Source of the DNA: Desulfovibrio sp. JY
GTDB taxonomy: Bacteria > Desulfobacterota > Desulfovibrionia > Desulfovibrionales > Desulfovibrionaceae
Assembly (NCBI GenBank): GCA_021730285.1
Contig: CP082962.1
Location: 4,163,501-4,227,500 of the forward strand
Direction of reading: 5' to 3'
DNA: 64,000 bases
Shown: positions 32,303 through 59,092 of the stretch, in pieces
Layout of the letters: each line of letters starts with the position of its first letter
Numbering within the stretch: position 1 is the stretch's first letter
The notes under the pieces: generated by a model
What the model was told of the DNA's origin: nothing
Seen by the model: only the letters and a program-made list of their open reading frames with translations
The model's database searches: none
Position numbers and translations under genes: made by a program

Positions 32303-32307
32303 GCCGG

Positions 32308-35212: not shown

Positions 35213-35252
35213 CCGACATCCAGGCGCGCGCCCGTTTGGGATTGCCCGCCTG

Positions 35253-38611: not shown

Positions 38612-38632
38612 GGATCGGCTCCCTGATTTGGA

Positions 38633-40102: not shown

Positions 40103-40145
40103 GGTGCCATCCTGTCGGCTGCGGCCCCGCGCCTCTGCGCCAGGC

Positions 40146-41057: not shown

Positions 41058-41064
41058 GCAAACC

Positions 41065-42288
41065 TCAAAATTCCCTGGTGAGGGTCAGGCCAACGATGTT
41101 GACATAATAGGAACTACTGTCCGAATTGTAGGAATCATTGTGCTTCAAACGATAGTAGCCCTTGAGCGCGAAATTTTTCGGCAGCTCGTAGCGCAATTCA
41201 CCCGTGCCGTAGATCCGCGCCACACTGTTGTTGCTCGTGACGGTATTGACGCGGCTTACGGCTGCCAGGATGCTCAAACGCGAGGTAAGTTCGTATTCCA
41301 CCTGTCCCGTGAGGGTGAAGTCGTTGGATTGCTGGGTATCCTCCCCCGAATAATTGGAATAGGCGGCATTGGCGGTAAGCTTGGTCCGGTCGAACGTCTG
41401 CGTGACCGTGGCGCTGTAGAGGGCCCGGAAGGAATTGTAGGTGGATGTCGGGTTGTCCACGTAATCGCCCTGGCTCTCCAGAATGAGGGCGGTTCTCCCC
41501 ATGGTGTGGGTCAGGCCGGCCGACCAGGTGGGCATCCAGTTGGACGACGCGCCGGAATCGGGCACGGTTTCCACGGTGCCGACGCGGCCGAAAATGAAGC
41601 TGTCCTCTTTGTAGGTGTACCGGCCGACCATGGTGGCCATGTACCGGTTGAGGTTGAGCTGGGTGGTGAACTGCCGTTCGGCCCGGACGCCGGCCCCGAG
41701 TTCCAGTTTGGCGGTCATCTCGTGCAGGACGTCCAGAAAGACCGTCGTGATGTTCTTCTCCACGGTGCCGCTGCCGCCGCCGTAAAGATCTTCCTTTGTC
41801 ATCGCGCCCAACTTGGTCGTGGTGCGGTCGTTGATGCGCGGCGTCAGCGTGGCGGAAAACGTGGACGTATTCTGGTTGGTCTGATTCACCGTGGAGTCGG
41901 CGGTTCTGGTCTGGCCCTGGGCGGCATTGGTAAAAACCATATGATTGCTGTCCGTGGCTTCCAGGACCAGCAAGTTCTTAATGGCTTCTATATTAAGCTT
42001 TGCCTCTAAATTATTTATCATCTCATTTTGCCGTTGCCCATTGTCATAGAGACGCAACTCACCTTGGTAGTCCACGGAAGCCTGAAAACGGCTGGCGGAA
42101 TATGTCCCCTGGACGCTCGGCACGAACCGGGTGATGAAGTCCGATCGCGGGTGTGAATTCTCATTCACATTATCGGAATACTCTTGGCCGGCACCAACGG
42201 ATACTTTATAATCCAGTTCAGCCCGGGCGAGCGGTGCGAAGCCGAAGCAGGCGATGACAAAGCCAAGGAGCATACAGTAGTTTCGCAT
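41065..42288 (-). CDS. PEP-CTERM-system outer-membrane beta-barrel protein
   Basis: A 407-residue protein with a signal peptide (MRNYCMLLGFVIACFGFAPLARA) and alternating-strand pattern to the C-terminal residue Phe (LTLTREF), the usual outer-membrane insertion signal. It matches the XrtA-associated outer-membrane family TIGR03016. Its likely role is polysaccharide secretion across the outer membrane or anchoring. ATG at 42288 follows AGGA. AT-richer in places than its neighbours. Confidence 0.87.
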   Translation of the reverse strand: MRNYCMLLGFVIACFGFAPLARAELDYKVSVGAGQEYSDNVNENSHPRSDFITRFVPSVQGTYSASRFQASVDYQGELRLYDNGQRQNEMINNLEAKLNIEAIKNLLVLEATDSNHMVFTNAAQGQTRTADSTVNQTNQNTSTFSATLTPRINDRTTTKLGAMTKEDLYGGGSGTVEKNITTVFLDVLHEMTAKLELGAGVRAERQFTTQLNLNRYMATMVGRYTYKEDSFIFGRVGTVETVPDSGASSNWMPTWSAGLTHTMGRTALILESQGDYVDNPTSTYNSFRALYSATVTQTFDRTKLTANAAYSNYSGEDTQQSNDFTLTGQVEYELTSRLSILAAVSRVNTVTSNNSVARIYGTGELRYELPKNFALKGYYRLKHNDSYNSDSSSYYVNIVGLTLTREF

Positions 42289-42363
42289 GGGGCAATTCCT
42301 GGTGTTTAAAGAATTATCCATTTTGCGAAATGCTTTATACTGTATTCCTGGCCCCATCAACAC

Positions 42364-43590
42364 TTAGTAGTGGCCAAACAGAAACCTTTTTATCCATGGC
42401 CTGGGCTTTTCCGTATTTTCCGCGACAGAAACGATCACCGGATCCTCCACGACAATTTCATCCGTGAGATCCACGACCCCAGCCTCCGCATCCTCAGGCA
42501 AAGCCTCCACTGGCGGCGCGGCGACAACGTGTTCCGGGACGCTGCGCATTTCCAGCGATCGCCACATCGCGTCCATGCGTTGGTTCAGATTTTCGAAAAT
42601 GCGCTGCAACTCCCCGCTGAGGGCCTGCATCTGGTCCGTGTGCGCCGCCTCGATCCGCTGCAACCGCCGATCGAGACGGAGCAGAGCCGCCTGTCTGTTT
42701 CCCGGAGGAATCCGCGCCGGCTCCCTGGCCGCGCCGGAACTGTCGTCGTCGGGGGTCTCCATGGTCGTGCTTTCCCAGTACTGCCCGTTGAAATTCAGGT
42801 CCTGGGCTATCTCATGAATCGTCGCCCCCGTGACTTCGCGGCTTTCGTTGGCAAAGGCATCGAGGAGGACATAATCGCACAATATATTGATGAGCCGGGG
42901 AATACCCCGCGTATAGGTATGGATGATGGCGTAGCATTCCGGGGCGATCCGCAAGGCCTCGCGGTTTCCCGCCGCCTCCAGGCGATAGCGGATGTAATGC
43001 TCGATCTCGCCTGCGCCCAACGGCTCGATATTGCAGATGATCTGGATACGTTGGCGCAACTGGAGCAGCGCCGGGTCAGACAACACCCGGCGCAGCTCGG
43101 GCTGCCCGACCAGGATGATGTGCAACAGCTTGCTTTCTTCCGTTTCCAGGTTGGAGAGCATCCGGACTTCTTCCAGAACACTCTTGGACAAATTCTGGGC
43201 CTCGTCGATGATCAGCACCACGGGACAGCGCTTGGCATACTGTTCGATGAGGAACTCCTGAAGGTCGCGCAACAGGGCGGGTTTGTCCTTGTCGCTGGTC
43301 TCCAGGCCGAAGTCCGCGTTGATCATGGCCAGGAGCTGGCGGGACTCCACCTTGGTGTGAAAGACGCGGGACAGGAGCACATTGCGCAGATGCTTCTTGA
43401 TCAGTTCCCGAATGAGGGTTGTCTTGCCGGTGCCTACTTCGCCGGTGAGCAGGATGAACCCCGAGTGCTCCCGTATGCCATAGTCGAGGTAGGACAGAAC
43501 CTTCTTGTGCGACCGGCTCGGGTAGAGAAAGTCGGGGTTCGGCAACAGCTCGAAAGGCTTGCGCCGGAAATTGAAAAAGGCTTCGTACAA
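42364..43590 (-). CDS. XrtA-associated ExeA-like AAA ATPase
   Basis: A 408-residue ATPase: MYEAFFNFRRKPFELLPNPDF opening, Walker A GEVGTGKTTLI (about residue 50), Walker B VVLIIDEAQNL, sensor region ILVGQPELRRVL, and a winged-helix part. A coiled-coil-like and acidic tail (about 285-408) follows. This matches the exosortase-A-linked ATPase family TIGR03015; its exact role in polysaccharide export is not known. Translation starts with TTG at 43590 after a G-rich ribosome site, 18 bases after the kinase stop. Confidence 0.9.
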   Translation of the reverse strand: MYEAFFNFRRKPFELLPNPDFLYPSRSHKKVLSYLDYGIREHSGFILLTGEVGTGKTTLIRELIKKHLRNVLLSRVFHTKVESRQLLAMINADFGLETSDKDKPALLRDLQEFLIEQYAKRCPVVLIIDEAQNLSKSVLEEVRMLSNLETEESKLLHIILVGQPELRRVLSDPALLQLRQRIQIICNIEPLGAGEIEHYIRYRLEAAGNREALRIAPECYAIIHTYTRGIPRLINILCDYVLLDAFANESREVTGATIHEIAQDLNFNGQYWESTTMETPDDDSSGAAREPARIPPGNRQAALLRLDRRLQRIEAAHTDQMQALSGELQRIFENLNQRMDAMWRSLEMRSVPEHVVAAPPVEALPEDAEAGVVDLTDEIVVEDPVIVSVAENTEKPRPWIKRFLFGHY

Positions 43591-43608
43591 GTCCGCCCCC
43601 TGTTGCCC

Positions 43609-44433
43609 TCATTCCACGTATGAGGAGTAGTAGTAATCCTGATAGGCCCCGGCCGGCTGCGTAAAGCTCGAGGCGTTGTACACCACGCCCAGCACCTTGT
43701 TGTTGAGCAGCGTCAGACACTCCCGGACATCGTCCAGGGAGCAGCCGCCTTCCCGGACCACCAGGACGACGCCGTCGGCCAGGTCCACCAGGGTGCGCGT
43801 TTCGGCGAAAAGCAGCACGGGCGGCGTGTCGATAAGCAAAATCCGGTCGGGATACCGCTGCTTCATTTCCGTCAAAAGCCCCCGCATGGAATTGGAGGAA
43901 AACAGTTCCAGGGGGTTTTTGACGGGCTTTTTCCCGGCCGGCAGGAGCACCAGCTTGGGAATGGCCGTCTTGACGAGGGCGTTGCTGATGTCCACCCCCT
44001 GCATCAGGCAGTCCGCCAGTCCCTGTTCGGGATCGACGTCCAGATACCGATGGCAGGAAGGCAGACGCAGATCGGCGTCCACGACCATGACCGTGCGGTC
44101 GTATTCCTGGGCCAGACTGATGGCCAGGTTGCTGGTGACCAGCGACTTGCCTTCGCCGTGATGGGCGCTGGTGATCAGGACGACGTTGTTGAACATCCCC
44201 GGCGCGCTGATCGCCTTGACGAGGAATTCCTTGAGCTTGCGAAACTCCTCGGCTTCCGGGGAATTCGGCTTTTTGAGCACCACCAGCTTCTCCTCCCGGA
44301 GACGGTCGGGATCGATGGGCGCCGGGGGCGGCAACGTCGGATGCTTTTGTCTGAAAGAGGACCAGGCCGCCGGCGGCGATACGTCCGATTGCCGTTGGGA
44401 GGCCTTGCTCAGGGCGTCTTCGATTCTGCTCAT
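43609..44433 (-). CDS. XrtA-associated tyrosine autokinase (BY-kinase)
   Basis: Cytoplasmic bacterial tyrosine kinase of 274 residues that partners the chain-length determinant. It has Walker A SAHHGEGKSLVTSNLA, Walker A' VMVVDADLRLPS, Walker B ILLIDTPPVL and a C-terminal tyrosine cluster (YQDYYYSSYVE) that is autophosphorylated in such kinases to cycle assembly of the export complex. Matches family TIGR03018. It is located 24 bases after the chain-length gene, the usual order for split Wzc-type proteins. Confidence 0.92.
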   Translation of the reverse strand: MSRIEDALSKASQRQSDVSPPAAWSSFRQKHPTLPPPAPIDPDRLREEKLVVLKKPNSPEAEEFRKLKEFLVKAISAPGMFNNVVLITSAHHGEGKSLVTSNLAISLAQEYDRTVMVVDADLRLPSCHRYLDVDPEQGLADCLMQGVDISNALVKTAIPKLVLLPAGKKPVKNPLELFSSNSMRGLLTEMKQRYPDRILLIDTPPVLLFAETRTLVDLADGVVLVVREGGCSLDDVRECLTLLNNKVLGVVYNASSFTQPAGAYQDYYYSSYVE

Positions 44434-44457
44434 GGTCAGGTCCGCCTTGTACGTTCG

Positions 44458-45930
44458 CTAAAGGGAATGCAGCCCGAATTTCTGCAGCCATTCGCCGGTC
44501 ACGCCCATGGCCTTGAGGCTTTCCATCGCCAGCACGCCGAGGACGAGAACGAAATATCCGCCGGCCAGGGCCATCACGAACCTGTCGCGTTTTGCCTGAC
44601 GCCGGGTTTCCGTTTCGCTGGTCATACGCGGAATGACCGCGAAGACAGGCAGGCCAAGCGTCCTCAGTTCCTGGAGGGATCTGATCGAATGGTCGTAGCG
44701 TTCGGACAGGATCACCGCGGCCACCCCGGCGCACAGTCCGAGCACGATGCCGATGACGATGATCAGCGGCCTGTTGGGGCTGGACGGAATCTCGGGCGCC
44801 ACCGCCGGGTCGATGATGCGAAACACCGTGGCCTTGTCCTTGAGCTCCATATCCTTGGAGATCTCGGACTGTCCGTAGCGGGCCACGAGCTGGTTGTAGA
44901 GGTTGGCGTCCTGGTTTCTCCGGTCGACCAGGGTGTGCAGACCGCCCATGACGCGGGGGATCTCCCGAAGCAGTGTTTTATTGTCCTCGATAACCTTTTC
45001 CTGCTGCGCCAGTTGGGTCTTGACCGAGGCGATATCGGCCATCACGAGCCGCGAGGCCCGCGCCGTATCGTCGCGGCCGCCGGAACCGCCGGAGCTGGCG
45101 CGGCTGACCTGCAGGGCCGCCCTGGCCCGTATGACCTTGGGATGCCTTTCGGTATAGATACGCAACAGCCGCTGCAATTCGGCATCCCTTTGCCCGACGC
45201 CCGAACGATGGGCGGGCTTGCCGCTTTGCGCGAGCTTGAGTTTGGTCTCAAGCGGGGCCATTTGCGCGTTGAGTTCCTCGATCTTCTGTTCCGCCTGCCG
45301 GATGTCGGTGCGGACGAAGGTCTCGTCGGTGGTCAGGAGGATGCTGTTTTCGCTCTTGTAGGCGTTGATGGCCTCGTCCTCCTCGGCCAACCGCTTTTTA
45401 TACACCTCTATCTGCTCGGCCAGAAACTTCGTGGCCTCCGTGGATTCCTCGCGTTTGACCAGGGTGTTGTGCTCGATATAGAGCATGGCCAGGGTATTGA
45501 CGAAATCCTGGGCGAACTGCGGCGACCTGTCCCAGAAACTGATGTTGACCACACCCTGCTTCTCATTGAGATTGACCAGGATGCGGCTTTGCAGGTCCTT
45601 GATGTAGGCTTCCTGGTCGTAGCCGACCGGCAACATCATGTCCTGGCCCAAGTCGTTGACCACCTGCGACAGGAGGTTGCGGCTGGTCATGCTCACGGCC
45701 AGCGTATGGATCTTGGTCTGGATGGAAGGCGCGACGGCCAGGCCCTTCACCAGATCCGCCAACACGTTTTGCTGGATGAAAAGGGTCGTCTTGGCCTCGT
45801 ATTTCTTCGGAATAATGTAGCTCACCGCGACGGCCGTCGTCATGGTCAGAAGCGCCACTATCAGAAAGAGACCTTTTTTGAGATAAATGAGCCGCTTATA
45901 TTGGTGGTAATCTTTAAGGAGAGCAAACAT
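44458..45930 (-). CDS. XrtA-system polysaccharide chain-length determinant (Wzz/Wzc-N type)
   Basis: A 490-residue polysaccharide co-polymerase with an N-terminal helix (about 20-40), a large coiled-coil periplasmic part (KFLAEQIEVYKKRLAEEDEA; DIRQAEQKIEELNAQ) and C-terminal helices (about 398-420 and 455-478). A Pro-rich segment PEIPSSPNRPL precedes helix 2, as in Wzz. Fits family TIGR03007. It controls chain length and contacts the Wza-like protein encoded just upstream and the kinase just downstream. Confidence 0.92.
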   Translation of the reverse strand: MFALLKDYHQYKRLIYLKKGLFLIVALLTMTTAVAVSYIIPKKYEAKTTLFIQQNVLADLVKGLAVAPSIQTKIHTLAVSMTSRNLLSQVVNDLGQDMMLPVGYDQEAYIKDLQSRILVNLNEKQGVVNISFWDRSPQFAQDFVNTLAMLYIEHNTLVKREESTEATKFLAEQIEVYKKRLAEEDEAINAYKSENSILLTTDETFVRTDIRQAEQKIEELNAQMAPLETKLKLAQSGKPAHRSGVGQRDAELQRLLRIYTERHPKVIRARAALQVSRASSGGSGGRDDTARASRLVMADIASVKTQLAQQEKVIEDNKTLLREIPRVMGGLHTLVDRRNQDANLYNQLVARYGQSEISKDMELKDKATVFRIIDPAVAPEIPSSPNRPLIIVIGIVLGLCAGVAAVILSERYDHSIRSLQELRTLGLPVFAVIPRMTSETETRRQAKRDRFVMALAGGYFVLVLGVLAMESLKAMGVTGEWLQKFGLHSL

Positions 45931-45945
45931 CTTGTCCCCCGTATG

Positions 45946-46749
45946 CTAGAAAAGGCTCTCGTCCACGATGACGAGGTCTCCGCCCTGCAAGACCACGTTC
46001 TGGGTCAGATCCCCATCGCGAATGAGCTTTTTTGCCTTGATATTGATGATCCGCGCCTGCCCTTCCGCGCCCCGGACGACCCTGGTGTCGTTGGGACTGG
46101 CGAACTTGGAAAAGCCGCCGGCGTCCAGGATGGCCTCGAGCAAGGTCATGCCTTCCCGGTAAACCACGAGCTTGGGGGCGTTGACCGCGCCGACCACATA
46201 CACGCCCCGGTTGGAGGCGGTGGGCGGGAGCAGGATCGTATCCCCGGCCATGAGCGGGACATCCTGGGAGACGTCGCTGCCAACGATCAGGTCGTGGAAA
46301 TCCTTCTTGATGATCTGGTCGTCGCGGACCACGGTCGAGGCGCGTAAATCGGCGCCGCTGATATCGCCCAGGCTGGTCAGAAGATTGAGCAGCGTGGCGT
46401 TTTTGGAAATGTCGACCACCGTGGGCCTCACGCCGCCGCCCATGACGAAAACCTTGTTGTTGCCCGAGCCGACGACAGTGACGTTGACTGTCGGATTGCG
46501 GATGTATTCCTTGATCTTCTTTGTCACCTCGGCTTGCAGTTGCGCCGCAGTAAGCCCCACAGCCTGGACGTCGCCGCTTTGGGGCACGGCGACCATCCCG
46601 TCGGGGCGCACCACCATGTCACCGGAAAAATCCGGTTCGCCGGCCACGCTGATATGAATCTTGTCGCCAGCCGCGAAGGTGTAATCCCTGGCCTGCGCTG
46701 CAACAGGCGTCAAAGCCAGCAGGGCGAAAAGCACCAGCATCCTGACCAT
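45946..46749 (-). CDS. Polysaccharide export protein (Wza-like), XrtA-associated
   Basis: Periplasmic/outer-membrane export protein of 267 residues. It has a signal peptide (MVRMLVLFALLALTPVAAQA), a polysaccharide-export domain (YTFAAGDKIHISVAGEPDFSG, VRPDGMVAVP), and SLBB-type repeats (GGGVRPTVVDISKNATLL; VVGAVNAPKLVVYREGMTLLEA). It lacks a lipobox cysteine at the predicted cleavage site, as in other exosortase-linked members (TIGR03027). ATG at 46749 has AGGGAA just upstream and gives a normal signal peptide; ATG at 46806 would give a long N-terminus and cannot be excluded. Confidence 0.88.
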   Translation of the reverse strand: MVRMLVLFALLALTPVAAQARDYTFAAGDKIHISVAGEPDFSGDMVVRPDGMVAVPQSGDVQAVGLTAAQLQAEVTKKIKEYIRNPTVNVTVVGSGNNKVFVMGGGVRPTVVDISKNATLLNLLTSLGDISGADLRASTVVRDDQIIKKDFHDLIVGSDVSQDVPLMAGDTILLPPTASNRGVYVVGAVNAPKLVVYREGMTLLEAILDAGGFSKFASPNDTRVVRGAEGQARIINIKAKKLIRDGDLTQNVVLQGGDLVIVDESLF

Positions 46750-46987
46750 GAGGTTCCCTGTCCCGCTGCATGACGGCACGATGTCTGAACAGATATTGCG
46801 CTTCATGACGCTTCCCCGTTTCAAAAGTGTTTCCGACACGTATCCCCGACGTCCATTGCCCAAACCCCGCACAGAGACCGGAGCGTTCCGGCATCCGTCC
46901 GCTTATCTTATCGGCGAAGTCGCCGCATCGAACGCATTCCTGGTGTAAGACGCACCGCAAGTACTCTCGTTATCCATCATCATTGGT

Positions 46988-47052: not shown

Positions 47053-48432
47053 TCACCGCGCCCCCTTGCAACGCAGGACAACGCCGACAGTTTTCAATAT
47101 GATACGCAGGTCGATCAACAATGAAATATTCTTGATGTAGTATAAATCATACCGGAGCTTCTCCAGGGAGTCCTCGACGGACGCGCCGTAGGGGTAGCGC
47201 ACCTGGGCCCAGCCGGTGACGCCCGGCTTCACGAAATGGCGCTCGGAATAATAGGGAATGATCTTCCTGAGGTTGGCCACGAATTCGGGACGCTCCGGTC
47301 GGGGGCCGACCAGACTCATATGGCCGAGCAGGACATTGATGAGCTGCGGGATCTCGTCGATGCGGCAGGCGCGCAGCAATCGCCCCAGCCGCGTGACCCT
47401 GGGATCGGCGGCGGCGGCCCAGACGGCGCCCGTGCCCTTCTCCGCGTCCTGCCGCATGGTGCGCAGCTTGTAGAGGATGAAGGGCTTGTCCCCCTGCCCC
47501 ACCCGCTCCTGCCGAAACAGGAACGGCCCCGGGGAATCGAGTTTGATGGCCAGCAGCAGCAAGGGGGCGAAAGGCAGGCACAAGGCCAGCCCGATCATGG
47601 AACAACAGATGTCCATCAGGCGCTTGACCAGCAGAAAGCCTGGCGTGATGTTGAAACCGTGGCTGAAAATGAACCAGCTCGGATTGATACCCTCGACAAG
47701 GAGTTTGCCGGTCATGCGCTCGAAAAAGCTGGGTTCGTCGAGGACCTCGATGCCGCTCAGCTTGCAGTTGAGCATCTCCTGCAAGGGAAAGCAGCCGCGC
47801 CGCTCCGCCAGGGAGATGACCACCTTGTCCGCCTTGAGCGCCTTGGCGGCTTCAAAAATGTTCTCGCTGTTCTGCGGCGTCATGGCGTCTCCCCGGCCGG
47901 GAAAAGGAAACGCGGCGGCCAGTTGGTAACGCTGCTTGGAGGCGCTGATGAGGGCCTGGGCCTTTTCCAAAAAGCTGTCGCTTCCGACCAGCAGCACCCG
48001 GTGGACCAGACGTGGCAAGGCCAGGGGGATATTGCGGGAGATGTCCCTGACCAGCATGATGCCGATAAACATGGCCAGCGCATAGGTGATGATTTCAAAA
48101 TCATCCGTGGAAACGGGCTTTACCTCACTTATCGTACGCAATAGCGTCATGGATATACCACAAGAAATTGCCGCTTTGAGAAGTATATTACCAAATCGCA
48201 TTTTTATAGTTGCCAACGAATATATAAGATTTACAAAAATATAAGGGAGTGCAACAATATAGACATATTCAAACATCTTCACGCCATATAAATCATATTC
48301 AAATTTATCCACTGCCCTATATTCAATGAATAAAACAATGCTCATTATGATGGCAGCAAACACAAGATACATATAGAACCATTTAAAAATCGACTCGTAT
48401 TCAGGATCATCCGTATAGTTATATTCCAACAT
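47053..48432 (-). CDS. XrtA-associated polyprenyl-phosphate sugar-phosphate transferase
   Basis: Initiating enzyme of repeat-unit assembly, putting the first sugar phosphate on undecaprenyl phosphate. The 459-residue protein has four N-terminal helices, a central Rossmann-like region (VLLVGSDSFLEKAQAL) and the C-terminal sugar-transferase domain: KRLMDICCSMIGLALCLPF, RQERVGQGDKPFILYKLRTM, RIDEIPQLINVLLGHMSLVGPRPERP, KPGVTGWAQV. Matches family TIGR03013. ATG at 48432 has GAGG 6 bases upstream; GTG at 48444 is an alternative. The N-terminal part is notably AT-rich. Confidence 0.92.
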   Translation of the reverse strand: MLEYNYTDDPEYESIFKWFYMYLVFAAIIMSIVLFIEYRAVDKFEYDLYGVKMFEYVYIVALPYIFVNLIYSLATIKMRFGNILLKAAISCGISMTLLRTISEVKPVSTDDFEIITYALAMFIGIMLVRDISRNIPLALPRLVHRVLLVGSDSFLEKAQALISASKQRYQLAAAFPFPGRGDAMTPQNSENIFEAAKALKADKVVISLAERRGCFPLQEMLNCKLSGIEVLDEPSFFERMTGKLLVEGINPSWFIFSHGFNITPGFLLVKRLMDICCSMIGLALCLPFAPLLLLAIKLDSPGPFLFRQERVGQGDKPFILYKLRTMRQDAEKGTGAVWAAAADPRVTRLGRLLRACRIDEIPQLINVLLGHMSLVGPRPERPEFVANLRKIIPYYSERHFVKPGVTGWAQVRYPYGASVEDSLEKLRYDLYYIKNISLLIDLRIILKTVGVVLRCKGAR

Positions 48433-48473
48433 CAGCCACCTCACTCACTTTGCGAACAATCAACTACCAAACA

Positions 48474-51068
48474 TCATTTAAAAACATCAGCCTTGGAAAG
48501 GTGCTCCGCGATTTCCTGGTTTTGAGGAGCAAGAAGCGCCGCACTTTGCAGTATAAAAATCGCGTCTTCCCGACGATCGTTCTTGAGCAACGCGTACCCC
48601 AGCGTGTCGAGAATAAACGGGTTATCTCCTTCCAGGGCATTCGCGATCATGGCGTATTGAAGCGCCTTGCCGGCCTGTTGCGGATCGTCCGCAGCGACCA
48701 GGGCCAGGGCATTGAGCACCATGGGAATGCTTCTGGCGCGATGCCAGACAGTTACGCGTCCCCAAACGCCGCCGGATCGGTTTGCGTCAGGCCGCCCCGC
48801 CCCGTTTTGGGACGCGGACGGCACGGCCTGCGGCGATGCCGTGGCCGTTACGGCCGCAAAGGAATCCGCCGCTTCGGACGTCCGCCCCATTTGCATCAGC
48901 AGCGCCGTCAACCCGAGTTGCGTCACGGCCTCGGACGGCCCCTTCGCAAAGGCCTTGCCAAGGAGCTGCCGGGCTCCGGACAAATCCCCCTCCCCCACCA
49001 GGGACGAGGCGCGGGTCATGTCGTCGGCCGCGACGGACTGCCGTTCGAGCAGCTTCGTTGCTTCCTCCGTGGCGCGTTGCCTATGCCCGAGAGACATGGA
49101 CAACCGGAAGCGTTCGGCAAGGACCGTATCCGGTTCGACGGCTTCGATTTTGCGGATGGCGGCCAGGGCCTGCGCCTCATCGCCCAGGGCGGTCTGGAAT
49201 CGGACCGTAGCGACAAGGGCCGGCAGGGACCCGGCGCAGACCGCCCGGGGACTGCCAAGGGTCGCGATCGCCGCCTGGAGATTGCCCTGGCGGGCGTAAA
49301 AGGCGGCCAGATCGAGCGTGTCGTCGCATCTTCCAGAAGCGGCCGCCTGCTCCAGATGTTCCCGCGCCTCCTCGGGGCGCCCCGCTTCCTCGAGCCGGTC
49401 CGCCAAGGCGGCATGGGCGACGGGGTCATGGGGATCGCGGACGAGCAGCAACCGGTACTGGTCCAAGGCCTTGGCGGCGTCGTTGCGGGAGAAGAAAATG
49501 GCGGCCGCGATATGATAGGGCGCCGTCAGGGACGGATCCAGGGCCTTGGCCTGTTCCAGTTGGGCCAGGGCGTCGTCGGTGTGGCCCTGGCCGGCGAGTA
49601 TCCCGGCTTTGGCCAGAAGGGCCTGGGCCTGATTTAGCGGGAGTAATCCCGCCTGATCCAGGACGGCGAGAGCCGCGCCGGGAGCATCGGGCCGCCTGGT
49701 GAGCATGGCGACCAGGGCCAACCGCACCTCCAGGTTGTCGCGCGCGTCGGCCATCGCCCGTCGCAAGACCGCTTTGGCCTGATCCGTCTGACCCCGCAGG
49801 TTAAGAATGCGACTTTTTTGCAGATCCGCCGCAACGACCTGCTCGGGATCCCCGGAAACGGCCTCGTAGTAGCCCAGGCTTTTGTCGAATTGGCGTTTGG
49901 CGAGATAGATATCACCGAGCATGCGTTTGGTTGCGGCATCATCCGGATACAACCGCAGGACCCTTTCCAACTCGTCGATGGCGGCGTCGGGCCGGTTCAT
50001 CCGCAAATGCAGGCTCGCCAGCTGTTGCCTGGCCTTGGCGTATCGGGGGGATTCGTCGAGCACGATGCCCAGTTCGCTGATCGCCATCTCGTATCGACCG
50101 TCGCGGGCATAGGCCTGGGCCAGATAATACCGAAGCTGCGTTTCCGGCCGCAGACGCAGGGCATGCTGGAAATTGCTCACGGCCTGCGACGACGCCCCAC
50201 GCGTCAACTCCACCAGTCCGAGAAGTTTGTAGCCTTCGGGTCGGGTGGGATACGCCTTGATCAGCGCCCGCGCGGCGCTCTCCACGCCCTCGGTCAGGCC
50301 CTTGCCGGCCAGCTGGTAAAAGGCGGCGTTGTAACGCGCCTCGATATCGTTGGGGTGCGCGGCGGCAATGCGCCCGAACGTGGCGGTGGCGCCGGGGAAA
50401 TCGCCGCTTTGGGCCTGGACCTGGCCAAGGAGGCGCAGCCCGGCATAGTCATCGGGATGGGCGGCCAGCAGGACATCCACAGCCGTCCGGGCTTCCCCGA
50501 ACCGCCTCTGTTCCATCCTGACCCGAATAAGTCCCATCCTCGCCTGCATGGCCTGGGGCGACAGGGACAGGGCCTGCTCGTAGGCCGTGGCCGCCTCGGG
50601 CCACTTGCCGGCACTGGCATAGGCGTGGCCCTCGCATTCCCAGGCCTCGGCGGAATCGGGAAACTTGGCCCTGTAGGCCGACAAGGCATTCAGGGCATCC
50701 TCGGCCCTGCCCGCGGCGAGGTACACCTTGCCCCGCAGGAGCGGAAGCCGGTCTGGCGGGCTGGGGCTGTCGGCCAGCCGCTGCGCCCCTTTCTCGGCCA
50801 ACTTCGTCTTGCCGAGGGCCAGATAGACCAGGGTCAGTTCGTAACGCGCCTGGTCATCCTTGGGGTTGCGCTCCAAAAGCGTCTTATAGATGACCATGGC
50901 GCCCCTGGCGTTGCCTGCCGCCATGAGACGCGCCCCTTCAGCCAGCGCCTGCTCCCTGCTCTCCCCCTGACAGCTGGCCAAAAACAGGCCCGCGCCGGCA
51001 ATAATCACTATCGCCAAGAGGATTGCCCTTGGTGTCGCACATTCCCTGGCAGCACGTTGCTCTCGCAT
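48474..51068 (-). CDS. prsT: PEP-CTERM-system TPR-repeat lipoprotein PrsT
   Basis: An 864-residue envelope lipoprotein: signal with lipobox LFLASC (Cys33) followed by roughly 20 TPR-like repeats (for example EGARLMAAGNARGAMVIYK; ALAQLEQAKALDPSLTAPY) to the end. Matches the TPR lipoprotein of exosortase systems (TIGR02917), which scaffolds envelope assembly; mechanism is unknown. A Ser/Ala/Gly-rich low-complexity stretch (about 735-775) interrupts the last repeats. It is the first gene of the leftward locus and is divergent from the response regulator. Confidence 0.92.
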   Translation of the reverse strand: MREQRAARECATPRAILLAIVIIAGAGLFLASCQGESREQALAEGARLMAAGNARGAMVIYKTLLERNPKDDQARYELTLVYLALGKTKLAEKGAQRLADSPSPPDRLPLLRGKVYLAAGRAEDALNALSAYRAKFPDSAEAWECEGHAYASAGKWPEAATAYEQALSLSPQAMQARMGLIRVRMEQRRFGEARTAVDVLLAAHPDDYAGLRLLGQVQAQSGDFPGATATFGRIAAAHPNDIEARYNAAFYQLAGKGLTEGVESAARALIKAYPTRPEGYKLLGLVELTRGASSQAVSNFQHALRLRPETQLRYYLAQAYARDGRYEMAISELGIVLDESPRYAKARQQLASLHLRMNRPDAAIDELERVLRLYPDDAATKRMLGDIYLAKRQFDKSLGYYEAVSGDPEQVVAADLQKSRILNLRGQTDQAKAVLRRAMADARDNLEVRLALVAMLTRRPDAPGAALAVLDQAGLLPLNQAQALLAKAGILAGQGHTDDALAQLEQAKALDPSLTAPYHIAAAIFFSRNDAAKALDQYRLLLVRDPHDPVAHAALADRLEEAGRPEEAREHLEQAAASGRCDDTLDLAAFYARQGNLQAAIATLGSPRAVCAGSLPALVATVRFQTALGDEAQALAAIRKIEAVEPDTVLAERFRLSMSLGHRQRATEEATKLLERQSVAADDMTRASSLVGEGDLSGARQLLGKAFAKGPSEAVTQLGLTALLMQMGRTSEAADSFAAVTATASPQAVPSASQNGAGRPDANRSGGVWGRVTVWHRARSIPMVLNALALVAADDPQQAGKALQYAMIANALEGDNPFILDTLGYALLKNDRREDAIFILQSAALLAPQNQEIAEHLSKADVFK

Positions 51069-52879: not shown

Positions 52880-53251
52880 TATATACAGGATCATTTTTCA
52901 GAATACCATACGCTTGATTATTATTACATAACCATCTCCATTGTCTGTCGTCGCGAGTCGGCAGGCTCTTCTCGTTTGCCCGTCTCACCCCGCCACGCCA
53001 ACAGCCGTTAACCCGGTATCATTGCATGCGCTACGCTCCGCAGCCGTGATCCGGCAGGCCCGGTCCGCGTTTCCCCGCCCGCCGCGACAGCCCGGCCGGC
53101 GGCCCGTTGCGCGTCGCTTCCGTCTTCCTCTTTGCATCGGGGATGCCCCCAAGGCGAATGGGGCGTTCCCCGTATTTTGCCGGCTGTGCCCATTCCGTAT
53201 GTATCACGCACAATGTGCATCTCAAAAAACTGTGGAGGCCACGGGAAACCG
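52880..53251. other. Intergenic region before xrtA
   Basis: About 370 bases between the regulator and the exosortase gene. Composition becomes GC-rich after about 52.95 kb. No sigma-54 site with correct GG-10-GC spacing and no clear terminator was found. A small GGGG-CGTT-CCCC hairpin lies near 53160-53171. Confidence 0.3.
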
Positions 53252-54163
53252 ATGCAATTCGCGAAACACACCACCGGCCCCAGGGACCCGGAAACAGGCG
53301 GCGCGGGCAGCCCTGTCGACGCGGACGCCCAAACGCTCGCCATGGCGCTTCGTGCCGAGTGGCTTCCCCTGGCCATGGGCGTCGTCGTCATCGCGCTGAC
53401 CTACCGCCAGATCGTCCCCCCCATGGTCCGGGACTGGTATTTCGACGACAACGCCTCCCATGGTTTTTTCATTCCCTTGATCTCCGGGTACCTTGTCTGG
53501 ACACGCCGCGATGCGCTGGCCCGGGCGCCGGTCGGCTCCAACCCGGTCGGGCTGTTCCTGGTCGTGGCGGCGGCGGCCATGCTTGTGGCCGGATGGCTGG
53601 CCTCGGAATTCTTCACCATGCGCGCCTCCCTCGTGGTGGCGCTTTGCGGCTGCGTGCTCTACTGGCTGGGCACGAAGGTGTTCTCCCTGCTGGCCCCGGC
53701 GCTGCTCTTCCTCTTTTTCATGATTCCCCTGCCGGCCATCGCCTACGATGCCGTCGCCTTTCCCCTCAAACTCTTCGTCAGCTGGCTGTCGGTCGGCGTC
53801 CTCAAAGCTATGGGCATCATGGTGCTGCGCGAGGGCAACGTCATCATGCTGCCCAATATCACCCTGGAGGTCGTGGACGCCTGTAGCGGCATGCGCTCGC
53901 TGACGTCCCTGCTGGCGCTGGCCACGGCCTACGCCCTGATTTTTCTTCGATCCCCCTGGCAGCGTCTGGTCCTGGTGGCCTCCGCCATCCCCATCGCCAT
54001 CGCCGCCAACACCCTGCGTGTCATTGGTACTGGATTTCTGGCTCGCCGCATGGGCTCCGCCGCGGCGCAAGGCTTTTTCCACGAATTTACCGGGCTGGCC
54101 ACCTTCGTTTTGGCCCTGGCCGCCCTGGCTGCCCTGCATCAGGTGCTGCGGAGGTTCAAGTGA
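53252..54163 (+). CDS. xrtA: Exosortase A
   Basis: Inner-membrane cysteine protease/transpeptidase that recognises the PEP-CTERM tail of exported proteins and cleaves it. The 303-residue protein has about eight helices and the conserved catalytic residues: Cys211 in VVDACSGMRSL, Arg256 in NTLRV and His277 in FFHEFTG. ATG at 53252 (GGGAA upstream) gives a normal cytoplasmic N-terminus; the frame extends 40 codons upstream without a better start. Its stop overlaps the epsI-type start (GTGA), so the two are coupled. Confidence 0.93.
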   Translation: MQFAKHTTGPRDPETGGAGSPVDADAQTLAMALRAEWLPLAMGVVVIALTYRQIVPPMVRDWYFDDNASHGFFIPLISGYLVWTRRDALARAPVGSNPVGLFLVVAAAAMLVAGWLASEFFTMRASLVVALCGCVLYWLGTKVFSLLAPALLFLFFMIPLPAIAYDAVAFPLKLFVSWLSVGVLKAMGIMVLREGNVIMLPNITLEVVDACSGMRSLTSLLALATAYALIFLRSPWQRLVLVASAIPIAIAANTLRVIGTGFLARRMGSAAAQGFFHEFTGLATFVLALAALAALHQVLRRFK

Positions 54164-54795
54164 AGATTTCCTGGTTCCGCTTCCTGGCCGTCTACGCTTT
54201 GCTCCTGGCCGCCGCCGGCTACGTCGCCCTCCATCACGAAACGGCGCAGCCCCTGCCGCAGCCATTGACGGCATTTCCCAACCAGTTGGGCGAATGGCGC
54301 GCGGTCGGCCACAAGCAATTCAGCGAGGCCCTGCTGACCAAACTGCGGCCAACCGACTACCTGTATCGTCGCTACAGCGGTCCCGGCGGGAAAACCGTCG
54401 ACGTCTACATCGGCTACCACGACGGCGCCCAGGGCGCGGGGCCGATCCATTCCCCCAAGAATTGCCTGCCGGGCAACGGCTGGTTGGAAATCTCCTCCTC
54501 CCCCCTGGAACTCGACATCGGGCGGGAACGCATCCATCTGACCCAGGCGGTGTATCGCCAGGACGAGCAACAGGAACTGTTTCTCTACTGGTTCATGGTC
54601 CGTGGCCGGACCTTGTCCACCGAGGTAGGCCTCAAACTGGCGGAGATCGCCAACGCTGTCAGATACGGCCAGCGCGGAGCCTGCTTCGTACGCCTGTCCC
54701 TGCCGGTGGCGGACAATCCGGCCGCATCCGCAGGCATCGCCCAGTCCTTCCTCGAACGGGCGTACCCAGCCATCTGCGCATTTACTTCCTCATAG
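54160..54795 (+). CDS. EpsI-family exosortase-associated protein
   Basis: A 211-residue protein with one N-terminal helix and a periplasmic domain of the EpsI/DUF3485 family (TIGR02914). It has the family hallmark HSPKNCLPGNGW with its conserved cysteine, and LGEWRAV near residue 45. In many species this domain is fused to the exosortase; here it is a separate gene overlapping xrtA by 4 bases. The function is not known, but the conserved association points to a role in sorting or coupling to polysaccharide. Starts with GTG. Confidence 0.92.
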   Translation: MKISWFRFLAVYALLLAAAGYVALHHETAQPLPQPLTAFPNQLGEWRAVGHKQFSEALLTKLRPTDYLYRRYSGPGGKTVDVYIGYHDGAQGAGPIHSPKNCLPGNGWLEISSSPLELDIGRERIHLTQAVYRQDEQQELFLYWFMVRGRTLSTEVGLKLAEIANAVRYGQRGACFVRLSLPVADNPAASAGIAQSFLERAYPAICAFTSS

Positions 54796-54809: not shown

Positions 54810-56834
54810 ATGCAAACCATTCTTGTCGCCTCGTCCAGCATTCTGGGGCTGCTTTTGTGCGTCATGCTCCTGTTCAAGCGCCGGTTCACCTGGGCCGACG
54901 GGTTGTTGTTCCTGGCCCTGATCTGCCTGATCGGCACGGAGCTGTTGCAGTTCCGTGCCGCCGACGCCTCACTCCTGTCCCTGCAACGCTGGAGCCTGGC
55001 CACCCAGGGCATGGCCATCTGGTGCCTGGCCGGCTTCAGCCTGGCCTATGCCAGAATCAACCGGCCCTTTTTCATGTCCTGGCTGCAAACACTGTTTATC
55101 CTGTCCTGCGTCCTGTTGCCGCTCGTTCCCCTGCTTGCCCCCACCAAGGCCCTTTTTTCCATCACCGGCCCCCAGCCAACGCCCTGGATCATTCCCCTGA
55201 CGCGTCTGGGATTCTACCACCATCTGGGTCTGCTCATCGTGTTGCTGTGGTGCCTGTTCAATCTGGAGGGGACGCTGGCCAACGCCACCCATGCCAAGCG
55301 TTGGCGCATCAAATTTTTCGTATTGGGCCTCATGGCCATTCTCGCCGCGCAGTTTCTGGCCACAAGCCAGGATCTGCTCTACAACGCGCTGGATCTTTCC
55401 CAAAGCCCGACGCGTGAAATCGGCATCCTGCTGGGTGCGGCGCTGATGTGCTACTCGCTGGCGACCAGGGGCGGGGAGCAAAAGATCATCTTTTCACACC
55501 ACCTGGCTTACAAGTCGCTTGTTATATTCGCGGCAGGCATCTATCTCATCAGTATAGGCTTGATAGCAAAGGCCACGCAATATTTCGATTTTATCAACAG
55601 GTCCACGATAGTCGCCGGAATGTCCCTCCTCGGCGGACTCACCCTTGCCGTCATTTTTCTTTCGGAGACGGTACAACGCAATATAAAACTGGCAATATAT
55701 AATTATTTTTACAACAACAAATATGACTACCGTCTTCAATGGCTGGATTTCACACATCGTCTGGCCGATGCGCACCAATCCAAAGATCTCTATCAGGCCG
55801 TCCTGCTCGGCTTTTGCGAAAATCTCGGCATGGGGCAGGCGTCGCTGTATCTGCGCAATGCCAAGACCCAGATGTTCGATCCCATCCATCAGTGGGAAAT
55901 GACCAAAGCGGACACAGCCCTTGCGCCGAGCCACCCCCTGTGCCAACCACCGACGCCGCCCCGTTTCGTAACCGACCTGCGGACAACCCCGCCAACGCCC
56001 CCCGCCCCTCCGGCCAGTTTCTCCATTCCCCTCCTGCGCGGCCAGGAGATGGAAGGCTTCATTCTCATCGCCCATCCCTTCAATCCCGAAGAGCAGTATG
56101 ACGAAGAGGACTTCGAACTCATGGAGGCCCTGGGGAACCAGTCGGCCAACGCCATCCTGAATATGCGACTGGCCGAGGAACTGGCCGCGGCCCGGGAAAT
56201 GGAGGCCCTGGGCAAGGTGTCGGCCTTTGTCCTGCACGACCTCAAAAATCTCGTCCACGCCTTGTCGATCCTGATGGAAAACGCCAAAACCTACATCGAG
56301 AATCCGGAATTCCAGCGGGACATGTTCGAGACCCTGGACAATACCGTGGTCAAAATGACGCGGCTTATCCGCAAGCTGCGGGATCTCCCCCAGGACGAGG
56401 CCCTCATGCGCGAGTCGGTGGATCTTTTGGCCTTCACCCAGGAATCCCTCAGCATCGCGCCCAAAGGGGCCTTGCAGGTCTTTGGCGGAAGCGTGCCGGC
56501 CACGGTGGATCGCGCCGAGATGTCAAAGGTGCTGGTCAATCTCTTCCACAATGCCCAGGAGGCCTGCCAGGGGAAAAATCCCGTCCGGGTGGAGGTCGGC
56601 CATCAAGACCAACCCTACATCAAAATCAGCGATTCCGGGTGCGGCATGGACGCGGAATTCGTCAACAATCAGCTTTTCGTGCCGTTTAGCAGCACCAAGG
56701 AAAACGGGATGGGCATTGGCCTCTATCAGAGCAAACAGATCATCGAGGCCCATGGCGGACGTCTCCTGGTGGAAAGCCAACCCGGCCAGGGCTCCACGTT
56801 CACGGTCCTGTTGCCCGAAAGCCAATCTTCCTAA
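54810..56834 (+). CDS. prsK: PEP-CTERM-system sensor histidine kinase PrsK
   Basis: A 674-residue membrane kinase: about eight N-terminal helices (to about residue 300), a GAF-like domain (about 310-460, with a Pro-rich loop TTPPTPPAPPA), then dimerisation/phosphoacceptor VLHDLKN (His476) and an ATPase domain (SDSGCGMD; FSSTKENGMGIGLYQSK; GQGSTFTVLLP). Matches TIGR02916, which has an unusual HDLKN motif instead of HELRN-like motifs. ATG at 54810 has GGGAGG 5 bases upstream. The long upstream open frame overlaps xrtA and epsI and is not coding. It presumably phosphorylates PrsR. Confidence 0.93.
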   Translation: MQTILVASSSILGLLLCVMLLFKRRFTWADGLLFLALICLIGTELLQFRAADASLLSLQRWSLATQGMAIWCLAGFSLAYARINRPFFMSWLQTLFILSCVLLPLVPLLAPTKALFSITGPQPTPWIIPLTRLGFYHHLGLLIVLLWCLFNLEGTLANATHAKRWRIKFFVLGLMAILAAQFLATSQDLLYNALDLSQSPTREIGILLGAALMCYSLATRGGEQKIIFSHHLAYKSLVIFAAGIYLISIGLIAKATQYFDFINRSTIVAGMSLLGGLTLAVIFLSETVQRNIKLAIYNYFYNNKYDYRLQWLDFTHRLADAHQSKDLYQAVLLGFCENLGMGQASLYLRNAKTQMFDPIHQWEMTKADTALAPSHPLCQPPTPPRFVTDLRTTPPTPPAPPASFSIPLLRGQEMEGFILIAHPFNPEEQYDEEDFELMEALGNQSANAILNMRLAEELAAAREMEALGKVSAFVLHDLKNLVHALSILMENAKTYIENPEFQRDMFETLDNTVVKMTRLIRKLRDLPQDEALMRESVDLLAFTQESLSIAPKGALQVFGGSVPATVDRAEMSKVLVNLFHNAQEACQGKNPVRVEVGHQDQPYIKISDSGCGMDAEFVNNQLFVPFSSTKENGMGIGLYQSKQIIEAHGGRLLVESQPGQGSTFTVLLPESQSS

Positions 56835-56849: not shown

Positions 56850-58235
56850 ATGGCAAACCTCCTCATCGTCGACGACAACAACGAAATCCGGCAGCAACTC
56901 AAATGGGGGCTCTCCAGCATCCCGCACGACCTGCACTTCGCCAAGGACGGCAAGGAAGCTCTGGAAATTTTCCGGGCGGTCAAGCCTGGCGTGGTGGCCC
57001 TTGATCTGGGACTGCCGCCGCATACCGGCGACGCGTCGCAGGGATTGCTGTGCCTCGAAAAAATGATCGCGGAACGCCCCTCCGCGAAAATCATCGTCAT
57101 CACGGGGTTCGACGGCCAGGCCAATGCCCGTCGGGCCATTGAACTCGGCGCCTATGATTTCTTCCGCAAGCCTGTCGATATCGGGGAACTCAGGGTCATG
57201 ATCCAACGCGCCTTTCGCCGTCTGGAGATCGAAGGCGCCGCGCCGCGCCCCCGTCGCGCCCGGCCGTCCGGGCGCAAGCCCGTGCATGGCATCGTGGGCA
57301 ACTGCGAGGCCATGGGCGAGGTCTACGCGTTCATCGACAAAGTGGCGGCGGCGGACGCGCCGGTGCTCATTTCCGGCGAATCCGGCACGGGGAAGGAATT
57401 GGTTGCCAAGGCCATCCACCAGGCCAGCTCCCGAAGGGACCACCCCCTGGTGTCCATCAACTGCGGGGCCATCCCGGAAAACCTGCTCGAATCGGAGTTC
57501 TTCGGGCACGAGCGCGGGGCGTTTACCGGCGCCACCAGCACCGTGAAAGGCAAGGTAGAATACGCCGACAACGGCACCCTGTTCCTGGACGAGATCGGGG
57601 AACTGCCACTGAACCTGCAAGTGAAGCTGTTGCGTTTCCTCCAGGACATGTGCATCCAGCGCGTCGGGGGGCGCAAGACCATCGAGATCAACGTGCGGGT
57701 CCTGGCGGCCACGAATGTCAACATCCTTGAAGCGATGCGTCTGGGACAATTCCGCGAAGACCTGTATTATCGCATCAGCGTGGTCAGCATCCAACTGCCG
57801 CCCCTGCGTGAACGGGGTGAGGACGCCGTGCTGCTGGCCAACCACTTCCTGGACATCCACAGCCGGCAACTGCCCAAAACGATTGTGGGCTTCACCACGC
57901 AAGCCCTCGACGCCATTCGAAAATATTCCTGGCCAGGAAATGTCCGTGAACTGGAAAACAAGATCCGCCGGGCCGTTATCCTGACCGAGACGCCCCACAT
58001 CGCCCCCGCCTGCCTGGGGTTCGGCGACGATATCGCCGCCGCCGGCCCAAGCGGCGCCAACAAGACGCTGCGGGACGCGCGCACTCAGCTGGAACATCAG
58101 ATGCTCTGTCAGGCCCTCAGACGCTTCGAAGGCAATATCGTCAAGGCGTCGGAAGCCCTCGGGGTAAGCAGACCGACATTCTACGATTTGCTGCGCAAGC
58201 ACGAGATCGATCCGAAAGCCTTCAGCAATCGCTAA
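56850..58235 (+). CDS. prsR: PEP-CTERM-system sigma-54 response regulator PrsR
   Basis: A 461-residue NtrC-type activator: receiver (IVDDNNEIR, phosphoacceptor Asp52, FFRKPVD), AAA+ domain with Walker A GESGTGKE, the sigma-54-contact GAFTGA (residues 223-228), Walker B GTLFLDEIGE and R-fingers in REDLYYRI, then a Fis-type helix-turn-helix (IVKASEALGVSRPTFYDLL). Matches TIGR02915. It follows prsK by 15 bases. Its likely target is the sigma-54 promoter found 275 bases downstream, in front of the PEP-CTERM gene. Confidence 0.94.
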   Translation: MANLLIVDDNNEIRQQLKWGLSSIPHDLHFAKDGKEALEIFRAVKPGVVALDLGLPPHTGDASQGLLCLEKMIAERPSAKIIVITGFDGQANARRAIELGAYDFFRKPVDIGELRVMIQRAFRRLEIEGAAPRPRRARPSGRKPVHGIVGNCEAMGEVYAFIDKVAAADAPVLISGESGTGKELVAKAIHQASSRRDHPLVSINCGAIPENLLESEFFGHERGAFTGATSTVKGKVEYADNGTLFLDEIGELPLNLQVKLLRFLQDMCIQRVGGRKTIEINVRVLAATNVNILEAMRLGQFREDLYYRISVVSIQLPPLRERGEDAVLLANHFLDIHSRQLPKTIVGFTTQALDAIRKYSWPGNVRELENKIRRAVILTETPHIAPACLGFGDDIAAAGPSGANKTLRDARTQLEHQMLCQALRRFEGNIVKASEALGVSRPTFYDLLRKHEIDPKAFSNR

Positions 58236-58261: not shown

Positions 58262-58437
58262 TTATCGCCTTCCAGCCCACGGCAGCCCCTGCCTCCCCCG
58301 CCGCAAGGTCCAAGGCATGGTCTGCATCGTCATGTCCCCGCAGCGACAAGCATAGATTATCTATTTCATTCCAGCATGTTACATTACAAGCGGACCAGAG
58401 ACGGCGAAAATTTGCAAAAATTTCCAGCCAGGTGTTG

Positions 58438-58456
58438 GCGTTCTTTACAAGAACGC
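58438..58456. promoter_or_regulatory. Candidate PrsR enhancer site (palindrome)
   Basis: GCGTTCTTTACAAGAACGC has perfect 8-bp arms around TAC. It lies about 55 bases upstream of the -24 box of the sigma-54 promoter. NtrC-type activators bind such dyads upstream of their promoters; assignment to PrsR is inferred from the neighbouring gene. Confidence 0.6.
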
Positions 58457-58509: not shown

Positions 58510-58525
58510 TGGCACGGAACGTGCT
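58510..58525 (+). promoter_or_regulatory. Sigma-54 promoter of the PEP-CTERM gene
   Basis: TGGCACGGAACGTGCT keeps the invariant GG (-24) and GC (-12) with exactly 10 bases between, and TGGCACG matches the consensus first element fully. Transcription would start near 58536, giving a 5' leader of about 50 bases before the ATG at 58585. This fits control by RpoN with PrsR, encoded immediately upstream. Confidence 0.8.
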
Positions 58526-58584: not shown

Positions 58585-58845
58585 ATGCTTCGCAACATCA
58601 TCTTCGGACTGATCCTTGCTGTCGCGCTGTTTTGCCCCATGACCATCACCTCTTCGGCTCAGGCCGCGGACCTTGCCCCGTCGATGTCCGGCGGTGGCTG
58701 GGGCGGCGGCGGCTGGGGCGGCGGCGGTTGGGGCGGCGGCGGCGGAGGTTGTCCGCCCGATCCCACCCCCGAACCCGCGAGCATGCTGCTGCTCGGTTCC
58801 GGCTTGGTCGGGCTGGTGGCCTACCGGAAGCGTATGCGCGGCTAG
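58585..58845 (+). CDS. Miniature Gly/Trp-repeat PEP-CTERM protein
   Basis: An 86-residue exported protein, the only PEP-CTERM substrate seen in the window. Signal peptide about residues 1-27 (to AQA), then a roughly 30-residue mature part: ADLAPSMS, a run of GGGW/GGGGW repeats with three tryptophans, a GGCPPDPTP segment with one cysteine, and the sorting tail PEPASMLLLGSGLVGLVAYRKRMRG split as PEP motif, hydrophobic helix and basic end. XrtA should cut at the PEP motif, leaving a tiny glycine-rich peptide. GGAGGAAGG lies just before the ATG. Function unknown; a matrix or adhesive structural role is inferred from repeats and context. Confidence 0.88.
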   Translation: MLRNIIFGLILAVALFCPMTITSSAQAADLAPSMSGGGWGGGGWGGGGWGGGGGGCPPDPTPEPASMLLLGSGLVGLVAYRKRMRG

Positions 58846-58865
58846 GCGCCACTTTTCCATACGAT

Positions 58866-58903
58866 GAAGGGCGGGATCGGCAAAGATCCCGCCCTTCGTT
58901 TTT
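58866..58903 (+). terminator. Rho-independent terminator of the PEP-CTERM gene
   Basis: Perfect 13-bp stem (GAAGGGCGGGATC / GATCCCGCCCTTC) with a 6-base loop, followed by CG and five T. It begins 21 bases after the stop codon, making the PEP-CTERM gene a single-gene transcript from its sigma-54 promoter. Confidence 0.88.
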
Positions 58904-59005
58904 GGGGAAGCCCTGCCCCGGCATAGCCGTGGCAGAAAGTGGTTTGGCCCGAAAAAAAGGGCTGCCACTGTCCGTCCGAACAGTTGCAGCCCGCTGCTTT
59001 TATTT

Positions 59006-59092
59006 TGGTACCGGGAGGGGGACTCGAACCCCCAAGGCCTTGCGACCGGCGGATTTTGAGTCCGCTGCGTCTACCAATTCCGCCATCCCGGC
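59006..59092 (-). tRNA. tRNA-Leu (anticodon CAA)
   Basis: Minus strand, 87 bases including an encoded CCA end. Acceptor GCCGGGA pairs with TCCCGGT (one G-U), anticodon stem GCGGA/TCCGC with loop CTCAAAA gives anticodon CAA, reading UUG. It has a long variable arm as expected for Leu and the T-loop GTTCGAGTC. Marks the right border of the exosortase region. Confidence 0.95.

Follow-up and report, generated by a model that had tools for sequence, protein, structure and literature searches.

A miniature Gly-rich PEP-CTERM protein as the only recognisable exosortase substrate of Desulfovibrio sp. JY

How small can the cargo of an exosortase be, and why would a complete sorting system be kept for a cargo that has no folded body? 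These questions are raised by a gene for a protein of 86 residues in Desulfovibrio sp. JY, an organism with a single-contig genome of 4,686,982 bases (4.69 Mb). We analysed the gene in a window of 64,000 nucleotides, i.e. the whole stretch of DNA under study. The protein is made of a signal peptide, a GGGWGGGGWGGGGWGGGGGGC linker, and a tail composed of TPEP, a hydrophobic helix, and RKRMRG. Its ATG is preceded by GGAGGAAG. The relevant features of the window are the following, with profile scores and their cut-offs in parentheses.

31274..46872, minus strand: exopolysaccharide genes (profile matches for 10 chosen ORFs, a selection)
47053..48444, minus strand: XrtA-system glycosyltransferase (TIGR03013, 438.1 bits, cut-off 393.35)
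48474..51068, minus strand: prsT, TPR protein (TIGR02917, 335.1 bits, cut-off 312.2)
53132..54163, plus strand: exosortase (TIGR02602, 216.7 bits, cut-off 105.55; start codon not fixed)
54160..54795, plus strand: epsI (TIGR02914, 133.3 bits, cut-off 42.8)
54810..56834, plus strand: prsK, histidine kinase (TIGR02916, 455.1 bits, cut-off 300)
56850..58235, plus strand: prsR, sigma-54 response regulator (TIGR02915, 584.4 bits, cut-off 502.6)
58433..58449, plus strand: motif 1, putative PrsR site TGTTGGCGTTCTTTACA (unchanged in the orthologous locus, see below)
58510..58525, plus strand: motif 2, sigma-54 -24/-12 element TGGCACGGAACGTGCT (59 nt ahead of the ATG)
58585..58845, plus strand: gene of the mini PEP-CTERM substrate (from the ORF, tail models, an orthologue, and selection)
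58863..58906, plus strand: intrinsic terminator (long stem-loop overlapping a run of five U)

The signal peptide spans residues 1-25 or 1-27, as judged by eye and with a crude rule script. The linker of 20 residues contains 17 Gly and 3 Trp and is followed by Cys-Pro-Pro-Asp-Pro. This Cys is the only one of the mature part, as the initial annotation had stated, and a second one lies inside the signal peptide; the annotated length of about 30 mature residues is too short, since some 37-39 residues separate the predicted cleavage from PEP. With the same crude rule the mature peptide has 3 Ser/Thr/Asn in about 39 residues, a composition that does not favour the glycan attachment to the linker suggested earlier. 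The predicted product, ADLAPSMS-(Gly/Trp)-CPPDPTPEP, has a computed mass of about 3,253 Da, is acidic, and lacks Lys and Arg. The class as a whole has been described as rich in Ser/Thr/Asn and poor in Cys as a rule (PMC1569441), and the linker of the mini substrate is the reverse.

The sorting signal itself is ordinary. The ORF reads as a signal peptide and a PEP-CTERM tail, just as annotated, and the tail passes the cut-offs of PF07589 (residues 60-83, all 24 model positions, 30.5 bits against 20.7) and TIGR02595 (20.8 bits against 16), while the VPLPA-CTERM model TIGR03370 gives 23.0 bits, below its cut-off of 25.35. In the PF07589 search of the whole genome the tail has an E-value of 6.8e-7. 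Both models exceed their cut-offs at this single place in the genome, the runners-up scoring 15.1 (PF07589) and 13.8 (TIGR02595). The observation that this is the only substrate in the window therefore extends to the genome for these two tail models, which could overlook a substrate whose tail is divergent. As the gene is the single place over the cut-off, the exosortase machinery has no other recognisable cargo. Among 14 control genomes, none exceeds the PF07589 cut-off and two exceed that of TIGR02595, which is thus noisy near its cut-off. A tblastn search of 72,556 plasmid records, with low-complexity filtering on, gave no match to the mini substrate at E 0.01.

Is there a machinery to process this protein? 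The exosortase contains the three conserved motifs in order, C251-S-G, N293-T-L-R, and H317-E-F-T-G (Cys-x-Gly, Asn-x-x-Arg, and His-x-x-x-Gly), and is the only exosortase found in the genome, where PF09721 has a single match (240.8 bits against 25.7). Its score on the XrtA model TIGR03109 (207.2 bits) is 0.8 bits under the cut-off of 208, and its identity as "XrtA" rests on context: PrsK, PrsR, PrsT, and the glycosyltransferase all score above their XrtA-system cut-offs. The exopolysaccharide ORFs encode an export protein, a Wzz/GNVR protein, a ParA-type ATPase, an AAA_22 ATPase, a polysaccharide deacetylase/DUF3473 protein, two glycosyltransferases, a GNAT/FemAB protein, and a beta-helix protein; one has no match. 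The mini gene is indeed directly behind prsR, across a gap of 349 bp, and beside the exosortase and its regulators.

The upstream region suggests that the mini gene is controlled by PrsR and sigma-54. Published PEP-CTERM promoters of proteobacteria combine a 17-nt motif ending in TTTACA with a -24/-12 sigma-54 element, with a reported mean spacer of 62.8 nt (range 32-92) and a mean distance of 71 nt from the sigma-54 element to the gene start (Haft and colleagues, 2006, PMC1569441). Upstream of the mini gene, the putative PrsR site ends in TTTACA, the spacer is 60 nt, and the -24/-12 element is 59 nt from the ATG. The pattern TTTACA-N(45-75)-TGGC-N8-TGC has 8 matches in the genome against 2 for its reversed control, so that alone it is weak evidence; the exact 17-mer at the equivalent place in the orthologous locus is the stronger argument for the predicted promoter. 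Downstream, the terminator (-31.4 kcal/mol, z -6.35) came from folding energy, and a separate pattern scan did not list it. In these sorting and regulatory features the protein does not depart from ordinary PEP-CTERM substrates of the XrtA type. A GGDEF diguanylate cyclase gene at the opposite end of the exopolysaccharide region (11342-12256, minus strand) has just upstream of it (12293-12363, minus strand) TTTACACTTTACA and a sigma-54-like TGGCATGAATGTTGC; a search of the same upstream region did not find the full motif 1. PrsR may also drive this c-di-GMP enzyme.

The single orthologue that we found is in a Solidesulfovibrio sp. (hereafter G009), where the protein is 66% identical and the gene is also behind prsR and has its own terminator. 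The promoter there has an identical motif 1 and a spacer of 62 nt, and its sigma-54 element lies 59 nt from the ATG. The protein has kept the tail and a Gly-rich linker with one Trp and the Cys, which in both proteins is six residues ahead of PEP. The two other Trp of the linker are absent from G009 (3 against 1), which leads us to reject the Trp repeat as a conserved feature, and the special weight given to a Gly/Trp repeat is not borne out. At the DNA level the linker consists of 3.7 tandem copies of a 15-bp unit (92% matches), whose number is therefore expected to drift. Of the drift in repeat number and frame that the initial annotation associated with non-coding DNA, the first is seen in the repeat pattern, but the frame is conserved.

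Selection on this frame can be read from the differences between the two genes, which number 26, 15, and 43 at the three codon positions over 86 codons (dN 0.27, dS 1.15, dN/dS about 0.23). The tail alone has dN 0.08 and dS 0.77, and in a test restricted to the gap-free ends the excess at third positions has p = 0.004. As dS approaches saturation and residues inside the Gly run can be aligned only arbitrarily, the dN/dS of the linker means little. Two of the other frames over the gene are open in one genome each (the plus frame offset by one in G009, one reverse frame in the own genome), and the plus frame offset by two is open in both. We rejected the latter as a gene because its third position would be the most conserved (15 differences against 26 and 43), the wrong pattern. 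A chance ORF was rejected given the E-value of the tail across the whole genome and the conservation of the frame in G009. Finally, a lipoprotein made via the Cys of the signal peptide was rejected, because no lipobox is visible by eye and that Cys is missing from G009. A coding gene with its tail, promoter architecture, terminator, machinery, and conservation in one relative can all be read from the DNA itself.

At E 0.01, PEP-CTERM matches are present in three of 13 same-genus relatives, namely G009 (one), G013 (one), and G010 (two), and were not found in the other ten. PrsR exceeds its cut-off in 21 of 199 genomes of the family, including the own one, and within the genus also in G009, G010, and G013; these four genus genomes were examined for an exosortase and all have one. 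In G010 prsR is followed by an ORF that resembles a methyltransferase by eye and by prsT, in G013 by prsT, and we saw a mini gene in neither place; their PEP-CTERM frames lie elsewhere in the genome and encode 201 to 287 aa. The downstream DUF554 gene and two further ORFs (HypA and HypB by eye) have no tblastn match in the examined stretches of G009, G010, and G013, and no tRNA was found in the stretch L144. Since the downstream flanks differ, the mini gene travels with prsR in G009 and not with the right flank. In the own genome a tRNA-Leu (CAA) gene lies directly behind the mini gene (59006-59092, minus strand); it may mark the edge of an island, the PEP-CTERM system being patchy in the genus. 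Full-length matches to a profile of the mini substrate (A2, 91 positions) were confined to G000 and G009 among 348 genomes of the order, and to G000 among 395 of the phylum, in each case among at most 13-15 scored candidates per genome. In another genus of the family, the place directly behind prsR is taken in G079 by a frame of 246 aa (L034:2915-3652) that is Gly-rich in part and ends in a PEP-like tail, which scores 20 on PF07589, just under the cut-off of 20.7.

Domain-less mini substrates recur in other bacteria. Our collection comprises ten such proteins (65-91 aa), drawn from seven genomes in three families: the own protein, those of G009 and G125 (same family), four of G463, one each of G730 and G726 (the family of G463), and one of G593 (another family). 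Start codons outside the window were chosen by eye, and frames without an in-frame signal peptide or resembling the end of a longer gene or contig were excluded (L012 in G018, L112 in G139, L205, L227, L234, L236, L244-L247, L253-L256, G656, G544). A candidate of 73 aa in G438 (L275, TIGR02595 17.5 against 16) was also excluded, as 2/14 controls pass the same cut-off. Nine of the ten pass the PF07589 cut-off; that of G593 scores 20.0 against 20.7 but is over that of TIGR02595. Their mature stretches up to PEP have 20 to 45 aa by the crude cleavage rule. The linkers are unlike each other, with Pro/His/Gln in G463a, Gln/Asp in G463b, and Asn/Gly repeats in G463c and G730; Trp repeats are also present in another family, in the mini of G726 (L313:1498-1749), whose linker has Asn-Trp-Asn-Gly repeats and a single Cys. 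As only the tail is common between families, common descent cannot be claimed.

The promoter pair is shared by part of this set. With a spacer of 35-95 nt and within 450 nt of the start, TTTACA and a sigma-54 element were found upstream of six minis (own, G009, G463a, G463b, G463c, and G730, the last with a spacer of 95 nt, above the published maximum of 92) and were missing upstream of G463d, G593, G125, and G726. In other loci the pattern occurs 5 times in 568,688 strand-bases, three of these being the promoters of the own genome and G009. The four minis of G463 (L257, L276, L278, L279, L280), with Pro/His, Gln/Asp, Asn/Gly, and mixed linkers, include three with the pair. Another lone mini next to an exosortase, without the promoter pair, is that of G593: nothing else there matches TIGR02595 at E 1 or better, and the mini lies about 1 kb from the exosortase match. 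Even so, minis are rare. A second profile (A3) has matches at 1e-4 in at least 145 of 395 genomes of the phylum, and short frames matching the whole model in three of them (G000, G463, and G593, themselves members of the profile), among the matches listed and with at most 14 candidates per genome. In 30 genomes of the family of G463, it retrieved G463 and two new minis, those of G730 and G726 (the latter over positions 6-77 of 80).

How do these proteins relate to known systems? The sorting system is known, and the mini substrate has its defining sequence features. It shares with XrtA/PEP-CTERM substrates (PF07589, TIGR02595) the signal peptide, the C-terminal module, the single-gene unit, the PrsR/sigma-54 promoter architecture, and an exopolysaccharide locus with Xrt, EpsI, PrsK, PrsR, and PrsT. 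What differs is its size, the missing body, the composition, and being the only recognisable cargo: it has about 37 mature residues without a folded body, is Gly-rich, poor in Ser/Thr/Asn, and has a Cys, and it is alone in a genome whereas those surveyed in 2006 are reported to have 1 to 65 substrates, with a median of 8 (PMC1569441). Small exosortase cargo as such is not new, because the PExPT-CTERM targets of XrtJ are already curated as a family of very short proteins (TIGR04200, 57 positions). Yet XrtJ is another exosortase class with another tail; the mini substrate of the window has no match to this model at E 1 or better and that of G730 scores 13.3 bits, below the cut-off of 40. The flocculation protein PepA of Aquincola (NF033554) is likewise encoded by a sigma-54-dependent PEP-CTERM gene, whereas its model spans 261 positions; it covers only the tail of our 86-aa protein (residues 62-84, 25.5 bits, cut-off 80). 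In G438, a Gly-rich protein of 86 aa with an IPEID tail adjoins an exosortase E/protease of the VPEID-CTERM type (L252:3290-5147; 211 bits on TIGR04162, cut-off 150), but this is again another exosortase class. The protein has no match at E 1 to the sorting-tail models, and we set it apart from the mini count for its tail. MYXO-CTERM proteins, the substrates of myxosortase, resemble the mini in the tripartite C-terminal sorting signal and in a Cys shortly before it, but the enzyme family is unrelated and the motif is described there as GCGC-like (PMC11980579), against PEP here. Among open-access titles and abstracts, with subscription journals largely outside their scope, we met no mini or Gly-rich PEP-CTERM proteins.

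We consider it probable that the protein is a minimal exosortase substrate, switched by PrsK/PrsR, cleaved, transferred, and acting as a stud or spacer of the surface or matrix. By analogy with systems studied elsewhere, this would involve 1) activation of a single-gene transcript by PrsK/PrsR with sigma-54; 2) export of the preprotein by Sec and removal of about 25-27 residues by signal peptidase; 3) anchoring in the inner membrane by the C-terminal helix, with PEP at the periplasmic face; 4) cleavage at the PEP-CTERM signal by the XrtA-type exosortase; 5) transfer, in which the new C-terminus would probably be joined to an acceptor associated with the outer membrane or with the neighbouring exopolysaccharide; and 6) display of an unfolded, acidic peptide of ~37 residues without Lys or Arg. 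PEP-CTERM proteins are thought to pass by Sec and to be retained through their C-terminal helix up to the action of the exosortase, and in Nostoc without exosortase the abundance of such proteins in the exoproteome changes (PMC12188702). The destination of the cargo (outer membrane, polysaccharide, or both) is given as a hypothesis in the sources consulted (PMC12188702, PMC11980579). In Aquincola, overexpression of the sigma-54-dependent PepA is reported to move exopolysaccharide from the soluble to the bound form (PMC9850573). Since the peptide has no domain to display, the likeliest use seems physical, that of a pliable and weakly adhesive chain located at the surface or within the matrix. 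Our guess is that it is a cohesive stud or flexible spacer, which could act by the flexibility of Gly, by aromatic contacts, and possibly by a Cys-Cys bond.

Three other explanations have to be weighed. The peptide could be a mere attachment handle, in which the conserved Cys or the few Ser/Thr carry a glycan or lipid. The constant position of the Cys in the two orthologues, the presence of one or two mature Cys in six of the ten minis, and the reported Cys-dependence of the cleavage of a myxosortase substrate (PMC11980579) are in favour of this; four minis have no mature Cys, the own mature peptide has only 3 Ser/Thr/Asn by the crude cleavage rule, and its tail is of the PEP-CTERM and not the MYXO-CTERM type, which together make such a carrier unlikely.

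We find less probable a regulatory or quality-control substrate, i.e. a peptide that reports exosortase activity or signals, with feedback on the adjacent PrsK/PrsR. The protein is very small, its promoter is of the same regulon type, and the gene stays directly behind prsR in both genomes though the downstream flanks differ. However, the composition of the linker among minis and the number of Trp between orthologues vary, unlike a signal read by a receptor, and of the four minis of G463 one lies 9 kb from the exosortase, the other three being 465 kb away or on different contigs. Least probable is a degenerate remnant of a longer PEP-CTERM gene that lost its body in a decaying system, the linker being slippage-prone GC-rich DNA. 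The linker is a tandem repeat and PEP-CTERM matches are few in the genus, but G009 has preserved the frame together with promoter, tail, and terminator, minis are found in other families, and the genes for PrsK, PrsR, PrsT, EpsI, and the glycosyltransferase have open frames whose products score above their cut-offs, as does the exosortase on TIGR02602 (though not quite on the XrtA model).

The minimal-substrate reading, which we prefer, can be carried further, if only tentatively: the minis might be a distinct functional class of PEP-CTERM cargo with several origins, in which the exosortase only grafts a short unfolded repeat peptide onto an exopolysaccharide or membrane carrier. We regard this wider proposal as doubtful; if true, what results would be no surface protein but a polysaccharide studded with peptides. 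For Desulfovibrio sp. JY itself, the machinery looks intact and the lone mini gene is conserved in one relative. One exosortase with one recognisable substrate of ~3.25 kDa, free of Lys and Arg, is close to ideal for the question of the acceptor, because the intact mass of one small peptide would give both the cleavage site and the joined mass. The interest of the mini substrate, which is moderate, is mainly as a tool to find what exosortases attach their cargo to. Beyond this, it suggests that an exosortase system can be maintained even when its cargo has no folded domain.
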